A DNA stretch of 5,865 nucleotides, from assembly GCA_016193065.1 (NCBI GenBank), contig JACPSX010000153.1:1-5865 (forward strand), in the 5' to 3' direction. The notes under the pieces were generated by a model. It saw nothing but the letters and a program-made list of their open reading frames with translations. It was not told the DNA's origin and made no database searches. Below are positions 2,417 to 5,863 of the stretch, piece after piece; position 1 is the stretch's first letter; every line of letters begins with the position of its first letter. A program made the position numbers and the translations under genes. The stretch is from Candidatus Tectimicrobiota bacterium. GTDB taxonomy: Bacteria; JACPSX01.

Positions 2417-2909
2417 ACAGAACGTGCTAGGCTCGCCCAAAATGAATCCCACGACTCACCCCACAACCCTGTAATGGACACCTGCGGCCATACCTTTGCC
2501 TCAAGATGCTTTCTGAGTTCACCAGCGCTTAGTCGTTCTTCGTTCCACTGATTCAACAGACGGACTTTATCGAGATCGTGGGAGATCCCAAGGGCCACAA
2601 GAGACAGCGCCTCAACGGCATCGCGCAGAAGACCCACGGCAACTGCGTGAGCACCGCCCTCATTAAGCCAGACGAGAGAGCCGGACGCTCTCAAGACAGT
2701 GCTTGCCAGTATAGTGCGGGATAAACTGCAACTGCAAATCGGACACAGGCGGTTGGTCGGCCCAAGTACCGCGTATAGTGCGGGATAAACTGCAACTGCA
2801 AATCGGACACAGGCGGTTGGTCGGCCCAAGTACCGCGTACGACGGATTGGAGCTCAACGTTTAGAGGCTCGTGCGTCTTCTTCCAATAATCCGGGTCTCC
2901 CTTTGGCAT
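2290..2909 (-). pseudogene. Broken integron-cassette gene of unknown function (tandem insertion plus 3' truncation)
   Basis: ATG at 2909 has GAGG (2918-2915) five bases upstream and lies 22 bases after the attC end, normal for a cassette. The first 24 codons read MPKGDPDYWKKTHEPLNVEL, then QSVV. Two identical 64-bp units (2710-2837) follow and shift the frame by two; the frame entered from the start ends in the bases after the insert. If the 128 bases are removed, QSVV joins cleanly to LASTVLRASGSLVWLNEGG and runs on through HAVAVGLLRDAVEAL, a charged stretch, VWP, then GLWGESWDSFWASLARSVQP. This looks like a soluble helical protein of a family I recall only as hypothetical, so I assign no function. 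Homology-like sequence ends near HIWINHPSG (about 2318). The last residues up to the stop at 2290 are antisense TIR-like gene. Expected C-terminal sequence and the cassette's own attC are gone. Confidence 0.75.
2710..2837 (-). repeat. Two perfect tandem copies of a 64-bp unit inside a cassette gene
   Basis: Copies 2710-2773 and 2774-2837 are identical over all 64 bases. The edges are ambiguous by up to three bases, because the flanks share G on the left and TA on the right. The unit contains a short internal direct repeat (CTGCAA twice) and a small inverted repeat (TTGG, five bases, CCAA). It has no stop codon in any of the three minus-strand frames. The insertion is flanked by TA on both sides, but I see no convincing terminal inverted repeats. 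Confidence 0.95.
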
Positions 2910-2931
2910 GATGTCCTCACATGATCCTGCG

Positions 2932-3033
2932 GCCCAACGCCGGCCGTAACCCGCGGCGGGCGCGAAACGTGCGCCATGAGCACAGCCGCCGCATGTGGGA
3001 ACGCACGCCGTCGGGTTCACGGCCTTGTTAGCT
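2932..3033 (-). other. attC: Integron attC site at the end of the helicase-nuclease cassette
   Basis: Read on the minus strand the site runs from R'' AGCTAAC (3033-3027) to R' GTTGGGC (2938-2932), about 102 bases. The arms fold: 3024-3006 pairs with 2958-2942 over 17 base pairs, leaving exactly two bulged bases (G and A) in the first arm. Bulged bases in one arm are the feature by which integron integrases recognise folded attC. The GTTGGGC end fits the GTTRRRY consensus. The site lies 43 bases after the helicase gene stop, the usual position. A central region with partial further pairing accounts for the length. Confidence 0.85.
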
Positions 3034-3076
3034 TGCCTGATGTGCACCTTCAGTTTCTGTGACTGCATCGTTCACT

Positions 3077-5560
3077 TCACGATTCTGACCGTCCGCGTCT
3101 CTTCTCGTAGGTGATCAAGACCCGCGTAGCGCAAGCACCTGGATGATGCTTGACCTCGGCTCCTGTGAAGACACTGAAGATCCAACCGAGTTCGGTCAGC
3201 TTGTTGCGCTGCCGCCAGTCCTTCTGCCAGCGATCGGGGCGGAGATGCCATTCGGCTCCATCGCAGTACACGGCGTACCGCAGCTCCGGAAAGGCGAAAT
3301 CAGCTCGGGTCACCAGGTGTCCCCCTTCGTCGCGGATCTCGTACTGGGTTACAACCTCCGCTAAGGCCTCGTGCTCGCGCATCGCAGCGAGGAGGGCTTC
3401 TTCGACCGGCGATTCGCACTCCCAGATCCGGGCCGGGGCGGGTATCGGCGCAGCCACCGTGACTTGCCGGCTAGGCTGCGTCCGAACCACCAGGTCCCAC
3501 AGCAACGGGTTGTGTTCGGGGCGAGCAACGCGTTGAAACCATGCTCGATCCGCGATGATGACAACCTTCCCGCGGGCGCGCGTGATTGCCACGTTCACAA
3601 GCCTGAGCCCTACATCTCCACGGAGTAAAGCCCCGAGCTCCGTCCTGCCCACGCCGTCTACGACGTCGAAAACCACGCAGTCCGCGTCGCTTCCCTGAAA
3701 CTGATGAACCGTACCCGCTTCAATTCGTCTGTAGGCGGGGTTCTCGGACCGCGCTTCGTGGCGAAGCCACTTTCTGAGAAGTCTGACCTGTGCTCGGTAG
3801 GGTGCAATGATCGCAATGGAAAGGTCCTGCTGCGCCTCGCCGACAGCGGCACAGGCAACTTCCATTGCAAGTTCGGCGGAAACAACGTTCCGCCAACTTT
3901 CGTGCGCCCTCTCACAGCGCGCGGCCAAGGCCGAAGTTTCGAGGAGCACTACGGACTCCCCCCGGCGAGGGGGAAGGTCCCTCAGCCACTCAAGGTCCGT
4001 TTCGTTGACGCCGCTGGAGACGTGAGGGTAGAGCGTCTGAACGCGCGCCCAGATTCCGGCGCAGCATCGTCGCTGCGCGTCGATGCGGGTTAGTCGATTG
4101 TCCGACAAGCGAATCGTCCTTGCCTCACCCTCGCCCTGTGAAATACCGGCCTTCTCGAAGATGTCCCGCCCCATCCACTCGATGGTTGGTGGCGAGCCCC
4201 CGTGTGACTCGAAGACCGGGCCAAGCTGACGCGGGTCTCCCGCTAGCAAGAACCGAGAGCGCGCGAGAGAGCCGAGAAATGCGCACTGGGCCGGGGGCAC
4301 CATGGTGACTTCATCAACCAACACGCTGGACCATGCTATGTCACTGATGGGGTTTGCTTCAGAGCTGAGATAGGCCAGCGTGCTCGTCGTGAAGACGACG
4401 GCACTTTGACGGATGTGTGCCTGAATGGCACCGCGAAGCTCCTCTTGGACGGTAAGAAGCTCGGCACGAAGGGTGGCGAGCTTCTCCTCCGGTTCCTGCC
4501 TTCGTTCTGCCTCGTGGATTCGCCGAGAAAGCTCCTTCACGGCGGTCGTCAACTCATTGAGATTCTCCGGGCCTAGCAATTCGGGCCGATCCATTACCTC
4601 TGGCTTCCGTGGGTAACCGAAGCGAAGGATTCGTCGATCGGCAAGGTAAGCCTGGAGAGTGCTTGCGCCGTCACAGTGCAGCAGAAACTGCAGGACAGCG
4701 ACGTCCACGGCGCGGTTGGAGGGAGCGACAACTAAGTGTTGTTCGTTTGGCGCGTGTTGAAGGAGCCCGGCCACAAGGCGGCCTATGGCGTAGGTCTTAC
4801 CGGCTCCCGGCGGCCCCCACAGGAATCTCGCCCACGGCGTAGGGAGACCGGCGAGCCGGTCAGCTAGCGCGATGGCATCATAGTCACACAGCGAGTCTCC
4901 GGGGGGCTGAACCGCGCCGTTCAGGAGCCTCCGGGCCAGCGGAGGCATCTCAGGAAGCCCAGCGAGCCGCGTCGCGAGCGAATGCAACAGGAAGGCGCGG
5001 TCGACCTGAAGAACACCTGGCACGCAATCTGGAAAGATTTCGTTCTGCAACGCGAGATAGACTGCGGCGCCGTCAGGCTCCTGCCCAACCACCTTGCCAC
5101 TGGTTCGCCAGCCACTTGGGGAGCGGAAGGTGACCGGGGTGTCGGTGGCGAAGGTCTCCTCTGAATCCACGAACAGCGCCTGGACAACTCGAGGGCCTAC
5201 ATGCGCACCTCGACTGACAGACTGGACGTGGAATGTGAGGGGTCTCAGAGTCGAGGCATACTCCTTGACAGCGTTGGCGATCTGGATGGTCACCTTCTCC
5301 GGGGGGACGGGAATTGTCGCAAGCCGATGGTAAACCTCCCACCCATGCGGGCTGAGTCTCACAACTCGCTCGTTCTTGCTGAAGAGCTGTGTCGCGTCCG
5401 GCAAGTCAGCCAACGCCTTGACGAGCTGTGTGAACTCCTCCGAACCCTCGAGCCTCCTGGCAACGCGCGCCCAGGGAACCCATCCATCCCTCGTAGTGGC
5501 CCCAAGCTCGGCGACGGCCCGAAGAAGGCGGAGAACGTCTTCTGTGATGGGGGTAGACAT
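3077..5560 (-). CDS. Superfamily-1 (UPF1/DNA2-like) helicase with C-terminal Vsr/DUF559-like nuclease domain
   Basis: I prefer the ATG at 5560 (827 aa), with AGGA at 5568-5565; the GTG at 5563 would add one residue. Residues are numbered from the GTG. A winged-helix-like N-terminus (about 5-82) and a beta-rich segment (about 90-195) precede the motor. Helicase motifs in order: Walker A GPPGAGKT (250-257), APSNRAVD (280-287), a coiled-coil insertion (about 337-384), Walker B DEVT (417-420), GDPRQLGP (442-449), AQRRC (496-500) where relatives have QYRM, APYRAQ (587-592), TVHQFQG (618-624) and VAITRAR (658-664). The C-terminus (about 717-812) looks like the Vsr/DUF559/MTES_1575 nuclease fold: SPVEEAL, RADFAFP (D755), YCDGAEWH (D768, E771, H773), then a basic helix and LGW. 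All motor motifs and likely nuclease residues are intact. It is shorter than the large DUF4011-type helicases with a similar nuclease domain. It is the only gene of its cassette. An antiviral, DNA-processing role is plausible but inferred. Confidence 0.93.
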   Translation of the reverse strand: MSTPITEDVLRLLRAVAELGATTRDGWVPWARVARRLEGSEEFTQLVKALADLPDATQLFSKNERVVRLSPHGWEVYHRLATIPVPPEKVTIQIANAVKEYASTLRPLTFHVQSVSRGAHVGPRVVQALFVDSEETFATDTPVTFRSPSGWRTSGKVVGQEPDGAAVYLALQNEIFPDCVPGVLQVDRAFLLHSLATRLAGLPEMPPLARRLLNGAVQPPGDSLCDYDAIALADRLAGLPTPWARFLWGPPGAGKTYAIGRLVAGLLQHAPNEQHLVVAPSNRAVDVAVLQFLLHCDGASTLQAYLADRRILRFGYPRKPEVMDRPELLGPENLNELTTAVKELSRRIHEAERRQEPEEKLATLRAELLTVQEELRGAIQAHIRQSAVVFTTSTLAYLSSEANPISDIAWSSVLVDEVTMVPPAQCAFLGSLARSRFLLAGDPRQLGPVFESHGGSPPTIEWMGRDIFEKAGISQGEGEARTIRLSDNRLTRIDAQRRCCAGIWARVQTLYPHVSSGVNETDLEWLRDLPPRRGESVVLLETSALAARCERAHESWRNVVSAELAMEVACAAVGEAQQDLSIAIIAPYRAQVRLLRKWLRHEARSENPAYRRIEAGTVHQFQGSDADCVVFDVVDGVGRTELGALLRGDVGLRLVNVAITRARGKVVIIADRAWFQRVARPEHNPLLWDLVVRTQPSRQVTVAAPIPAPARIWECESPVEEALLAAMREHEALAEVVTQYEIRDEGGHLVTRADFAFPELRYAVYCDGAEWHLRPDRWQKDWRQRNKLTELGWIFSVFTGAEVKHHPGACATRVLITYEKRRGRSES

Positions 5561-5563
5561 CAC

Positions 5564-5634
5564 ATCCTACTCAATCTCAATCATGAGGCGGCGTCCCCGG
5601 AGATGGCGCGTAATCGCCACGTGCGTCGTGGGCA
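5564..5634 (-). promoter_or_regulatory. Leader of the helicase cassette, no clear promoter
   Basis: This stretch lies between the attC core and the start codon. It holds a 5-bp inverted repeat TGGCG/CGCCA with a six-base loop, a direct repeat GATTGA GATTGA near the start, and the AGGA ribosome site. I see no convincing -35/-10 pair, so expression probably depends on upstream array transcription. A weak match is noted at 5737-5745. Confidence 0.3.
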
Positions 5635-5703
5635 AGCTAACGCGCACGTTGACCGGCCGCGGCGAGCGAAGGCGAGCCAGCGGTCCAGTCGAACGTGTTG
5701 TTC
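5635..5703 (-). other. attC: Integron attC site upstream of the helicase-nuclease cassette
   Basis: On the minus strand the site ends in R' GTTAGCT (5641-5635). The arms 5696-5677 and 5662-5646 pair as ACGTT, GAC, GG, CCGC, GG with single bulged bases C, A and T in the first arm and one C/T mismatch, leaving a 14-base loop. The R'' box is imperfect (GAACAAC at 5703-5697, or CTTGAAC three bases further out), so the outer edge is uncertain by about three bases. The arm pattern with bulges on one side and the 11-base match of its R' flank to the R'' flank of the next attC support the call. Confidence 0.72.
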
Positions 5704-5863
5704 AAGTAAGCCGCTTCGCGGCAGCGTGATCTTCCCATTGTAACAAACTTCCTTCCTCCTGCCGCCAAAAAACTCTGTAAAGGGCTTCCCGTACCCGCCG
5801 GTGATCTGCTTTCCTTCTCCTAGTCCACCCCGTCAACGGACCCCTCAAACCCCCAGAGAAGGA
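5702..5863 (-). CDS. Possible C-terminal end of the preceding cassette gene (partial, low confidence)
   Basis: One minus-strand frame is open from the window edge for 53 codons and stops with TGA at 5704-5702, inside the first box of the attC, a common place for a cassette gene to end. The translation is basic (TRRRKADHRRVREALYRVFW, then QEEGSL and AAAKRLT). The other two minus frames stop early. I recognise no family, and codon bias is weak (AGG, AGA, AAA mix with GC-rich codons), so the frame could be open by chance. Confidence 0.28.
   Translation of the reverse strand, partial: SFSGGLRGPLTGWTRRRKADHRRVREALYRVFWRQEEGSLLQWEDHAAAKRLT
5737..5745 (-). promoter_or_regulatory. Weak extended -10-like element reading towards the helicase cassette
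   Basis: On the minus strand TGTTACAAT is a one-mismatch match to an extended -10 (TGnTATAAT). No -35 match is seen at 16-18 bases upstream. It lies before the attC, so it could transcribe the cassette from outside, but a match this short can arise by chance. Confidence 0.2.

Follow-up and report, generated by a model that had tools for sequence, protein, structure and literature searches.

A large integron gene cassette carrying a putative SF1 helicase–Vsr-type nuclease, a candidate one-gene defence system

The window, i.e., the whole 5,865-nt stretch of DNA analysed here, represents an entire contig of a 2.9-Mb MAG comprising 294 contigs (contig C62 of MAG G000). Its minus strand harbours one long gene, encoding a predicted helicase–nuclease of 827 aa, bracketed by two attC sites. 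The features of the locus are as follows:

2691–2931, minus strand: start of the next cassette, with an ORF running from an ATG at 2909 and broken by a 64-bp tandem duplication
2932–3033, minus strand: attC of the helicase–nuclease cassette, at its 3′ end in the gene direction (102 nt; covariance model R3, layout score 31)
2938–5640, minus strand: gene cassette between two G^TT cut points (2,703 bp; supported by the alignment to a second genome, L013, and by end complementarity)
3077–5560, minus strand: gene for the 827-aa SF1 (UPF1-like) helicase with a C-terminal Vsr-type nuclease (AAA_11, AAA_12, MTES_1575; dN/dS 0.146)
3080–3439, minus strand: Vsr/DUF559/MTES_1575-type nuclease domain (MTES_1575 2e-8, Vsr 0.007; 37% identity to the end of the DruE-like protein L068)
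3542–4825, minus strand: helicase core, approximately residues 246–673 (Pfam, SMUBP-2 and UPF1 in the PDB, SF1 motifs)
5635–5706, minus strand: attC of the preceding cassette (72 nt; covariance models R2 and R3, layout score 28)

Both attC sites display a common layout. Read along the minus strand from 3033 to 2932, the first site begins with R″ (AGCTAAC, 3033–3027) and a two-base spacer; two runs of six paired bases, set apart by one extra base, then lead to a long loop, beyond which stand the two return arms, a three-base spacer, and R′ (GTTGGGC, 2938–2932). The site at 5706–5635 matches this arrangement, with R″ reading CTTGAAC and R′ reading GTTAGCT (5641–5635). In a layout scan over ~180 kb, the two sites scored 31 and 28, respectively, while nothing at 26 or above was found in three shuffled sets. 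Pair counts on the attC alignment were set aside as proof, since the sites had been picked by their stem pairing.

An earlier note on this DNA had proposed two attC-like sites flanking the gene, with a covariance search as the check; this search matched both of them on the minus strand. Models R2 and R3, whose E-values are rough, were trained on sites from other contigs, with none taken from the window. The short-loop model R2 (eight training sites) retrieved 5635–5707 at E 9.5e-6 and missed the long-looped site 2932–3033; even a training site of its own of comparable length reached an E of only 0.37. Because of this miss, the long-loop model R3 was built from 11 long-looped attC sites. It matched 2932–3033 with 62.6 bits on the minus strand (E 5.9e-15) vs. 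12.5 bits on the plus strand, and 5635–5707 on the minus strand with 21.7 bits (E 2.9e-4). As to specificity, model R1 reported no site in 17 of 20 other genomes at E 0.01, and nine sites in the window's own MAG. An Rfam search returned no attC match. Both sites are co-oriented with the helicase–nuclease gene. The opposite arrangement, a gene running against the attC direction, was rejected by the strand scores of model R3.

The limits of the cassette were set by the R′ cut between G and TT in each attC, and the interval 2938–5640 proposed earlier coincides with these cut points exactly. One attC lies 3′ of the gene in the gene direction and the second directly upstream. The interval contains one gene, as the earlier note had it, in the direction of the attC sites. 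GTTAGCTTGCC, the first 11 bases of the cassette, and GGCAAGCTAAC, at the R″ of the attC belonging to the cassette, are perfect reverse complements, as a circularising cassette should show. The statement that a 2.7-kb cassette stands at the large end of its class is likewise upheld: the median integron gene measures 402 nt, with a standard deviation of 308 (PMC7370490), and the gene in question, at 2,484 nt, is about six times that length.

The earlier note had also called for a search for homologues flanked by attC in other genomes, and one was found in an array of attC sites. Among 84,980 species (one genome per species), a single close relative came to light in L013, a groundwater MAG of Acidobacteria, with 95% identity at the protein level and 94% over the cassette DNA. 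The DNA alignment spans window positions 5642 to 3028 and then stops, the flanks being unrelated. On the start side, its end at 5642 lies within two bases of the cut point; on the opposite side, it breaks off within R″, since the attC hairpin is nearly lost in L013, where it has been reduced to AGCTAATCAATAGTTCGGC, i.e., R″-like and R′-like boxes with almost nothing between them. Thus, the limits fall at the R′ cut points and the neighbours differ in L013, with the 3′ end defined by this comparison only up to R″. L013 contains additional attC sites of the same orientation as well as other cassettes; the neighbouring cassettes encode DUF2281/PemK, an unknown 178-aa protein, a GNAT acetyltransferase, and PIN/Phd proteins. 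The upstream end of this array holds a group II intron reverse transcriptase (L013 positions 3–644), and an attC at 5420–5515 seems to be interrupted by a short element whose ends read TGTGTGAAAAC / GTTTTCACACA.

The covariance models, the strand preference, the end complementarity, and the second genome with the cassette among other cassettes together show that this gene is packaged as one large integron cassette. With hardly any doubt left, 2938–5640 is a mobile integron gene cassette.

A search for intI, attI, and further attC sites had also been suggested earlier. The window contig contains no integrase, and model R3 shows no further attC in the window; the L013 array has its further attC sites, and the L013 MAG encodes an integron integrase above the cut-off on another contig, along with ~30 attC sites. 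A complete integron is recognised by intI and attI beside the array; bearing two attC sites but lacking an integrase, the window contig is CALIN-like. MAG G000 yielded integrase fragments only (partial matches). Four of its contigs, C49, C131, C188, and C48 (loci L028, L036, L029, and L031), each carry such a fragment of the integron type, followed farther on by an attC of the same orientation. Apparently, these are several degraded integrons in one MAG, with intI co-directional with the cassettes.

The contig surrounding the cassette deserves a brief description as well. The gene of the next cassette is broken in frame by a perfect 64-bp tandem duplication at 2709–2836, which could be genuine or have arisen during assembly, and the closing attC of this cassette was not found on the contig. 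To the left of the array, positions 1–1979 and 2015–2125 encode the C-terminus of an HmaA-like protein (NO VEIN C-terminal domain) together with a nucleotidyltransferase/HEPN gene pair, and the same region retains a 78%-identical remnant of the end of the HmaA-like protein; these genes resemble a defence-like neighbourhood. At 2174–2335 on the plus strand, a ThsB-type TIR protein may be represented by a truncated N-terminus (12.7 bits, below the cut-off).

The two host MAGs seem to be only distantly related: their ribosomal protein L2 sequences share 67% identity (~71% in DNA); 16S rRNA is absent from both. Set against the L2 value, the 94% identity of the cassette DNA argues for horizontal movement: unless one contig is mis-binned, as could be the case for the window contig, the cassette has probably crossed from one distant lineage to another. 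Over 744 codons, the two copies differ with dS 0.163 and dN 0.024; the resulting dN/dS of 0.146 indicates that the protein has been under purifying selection. Only two copies of the cassette are known, and the one from L013 is frame-broken near the N-terminus, where 98 bp are missing. The likely start codon in the window is the ATG at 5560, because L013 has GCG in place of the GTG at 5563.

In 297 genomes of the L013 phylum, L013 itself set aside, the matches to the protein were confined to distant helicase cores and to nuclease domains standing alone. Plasmids offered only helicase-core relatives of 25–28% identity and no DNA match, and viral contigs, no close relative.

The earlier reading of the product as an SF1 helicase joined to a Vsr/DUF559-like nuclease proved right. 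Pfam models AAA_11 (8e-17), AAA_12 (2e-22), and MTES_1575 (4e-7) match the 827-aa protein; among solved structures, SMUBP-2 and UPF1 come nearest to it. The SF1 motifs of the helicase core (GPPGAGKT, VDE, GDPRQLGP, TVHQFQGS, and NVAITRAR) are intact and invariant in a six-sequence alignment. The MTES_1575 match stays below the gathering score (30.4 vs. 38.2 bits) and the Vsr match is weak (0.007), so the nuclease call rests also on the 37% identity over 103 residues to the end of the DruE-like protein L068. The nuclease domain of the DruE-like relatives passes the DUF559 cut-off, and it has in common with that of the cassette protein the residues E, D (ADF/PDF), CDG, and H. Taken together, the predicted helicase–nuclease identity is well supported. 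An N-terminal winged helix and an OB region are suggestions only, a structure prediction from two sequences having reached a mean pLDDT of just 32.5. The two DruE-like proteins, L068 and L069 from Acidobacteria, end in a nuclease of the same Vsr/DUF559 subtype as the cassette protein, which suggests that this type of nuclease is exchanged between unrelated helicases.

What such a protein could do in the cell is a matter of weighing. Defence is, we infer, the likeliest role because of the company these domains keep and the known integron cargo. The reading of the locus as an integron cassette whose protein acts as a one-gene defence effector is somewhat favoured over its being otherwise. In the mechanism envisaged, an IntI integrase would have excised and inserted the cassette via the folded bottom strand of attC; the N-terminal part of the protein would recognise nucleic acid that is foreign or aberrant, or load on it; the UPF1-like helicase would use ATP to translocate along a single strand; and the Vsr-type nuclease at the C-terminus would cut whatever it is brought to, the target being DNA or RNA. 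The defence role is in line with the intact helicase motifs, the dN/dS of 0.146, the Mokosh-matching core, the DruE-like nuclease, and the CoCoNuT-type fusion, and the toxin–antitoxin and acetyltransferase cassettes beside the L013 copy speak for the cassette reading. A bolder version, whereby the protein (N-terminal recognition region, UPF1-like helicase, and Vsr nuclease) represents an unnamed stand-alone defence system spreading between distant lineages as one oversized cassette, seems plausible and is placed a little short of an even chance.

Against the defence role, UPF1-like helicases and Vsr are active elsewhere too, in the surveillance of RNA and the repair of DNA: Vsr serves as a mismatch-repair nuclease, while UPF1 and SMUBP-2 work in RNA surveillance. 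A genuine cassette whose helicase–nuclease serves nucleic-acid repair or quality control, not defence, would agree with the closest solved relatives, SMUBP-2 and UPF1, and with the name of the Vsr family. However, the occurrence of a close homologue in only one of ~85,000 species genomes fits a housekeeping role poorly, and the fused helicase–Vsr proteins have so far been assigned to conflict systems (PMC11090510, PMC3710099), so we consider a repair function unlikely. Somewhat less likely still is a selfish or stabilising cargo, i.e., a nuclease hitting other mobile elements or incoming plasmids and thereby keeping its own array. The cassette life-style and the toxin–antitoxin cassettes next to the L013 copy would suit such a cargo, and helicase–nucleases removing plasmids are known (DdmD, PMC12409362), but nothing separates plasmids from phages as the targets. 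Finally, the supposition that the flanking repeats are chance hairpins or parts of another element is already refuted for practical purposes: in plain folding energy, they surpass shuffles by no more than a modest margin (z −1.1 to −2.3), but the covariance-model E-values of 6e-15 and 3e-4, the strong strand preference, and the boundaries matching in a second array of attC sites stand against it.

Integrons are now regarded as stores of small defence genes, and a 2.7-kb helicase–nuclease cassette would widen their size range. Should the defence reading prove true, integrons can carry full-size helicase–nuclease defences and not only miniature ones. The cassette offers a ready single-gene defence candidate with matching boundaries in two distant bacteria, as well as what appears to be a clean case of cassettes being exchanged beyond the well-studied Proteobacteria.

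The cassette protein does not fully match any named defence system. Mokosh type II is a single helicase–nuclease protein, and the helicase core in question matches the MkoA and MkoC models of Mokosh (MkoA profile 7.8e-41). Still, this match is confined to the core shared by all UPF1-like helicases; the Mokosh nuclease is of the phospholipase-D type, whereas that of the cassette is of the Vsr/MTES_1575 type, and the cassette protein has no PLD match. Membership in Mokosh fails since the nuclease type differs. The DruE-like proteins of Druantia, L068 and L069, resemble the cassette protein in the C-terminal nuclease domain (37% identical), but they contain an SF2 helicase and are about twice as long, while the cassette protein belongs to SF1.

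In the Type III-B CoCoNuTs, a UPF1-like helicase is fused to a Vsr-like nuclease, accompanied by McrB/McrC-type partners, with RNA as the predicted target (PMC11090510). As compared by description, the cassette protein resembles their CnuH, where a UPF1-like SF1 helicase is fused directly to a Vsr-like PD-(D/E)xK nuclease (PMC11090510). Neither a CnuB/McrB-type GTPase nor CnuC partners were found in the cassette, the window, or L013, and a one-gene cassette has no room for the McrB- and McrC-type partners (CnuB and CnuC) that CoCoNuTs carry. The combination of an SF1 helicase with a Vsr nuclease and without a methylase is also seen in the MTES_1575-type HEPN/helicase/Vsr giants, proposed as methylase-free restriction factors (PMC3710099); those proteins reach ~2,000 residues, whereas in the cassette protein no HEPN or transglutaminase domain was seen.

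As for the carrier, integron cassettes are established carriers of defence genes (Darracq 2025, Kieffer 2025, and Getz 2025, as cited in PMC12409362 and PMC12444791); PMC12409362 also describes that testing integron cassettes gave many phage defence genes and that defence systems are smaller inside integrons. Like those defence genes, the cassette described here consists of one gene, flanked by attC, of a size and kind able to move and be expressed as a unit. It differs from the reduced-size systems in its 2.5-kb gene, its non-Vibrio, integrase-less array, and the putative status of its defence role. Overall, it is a variant of the kind of cassette known to bank defence genes, one that carries a large, unnamed helicase–nuclease.
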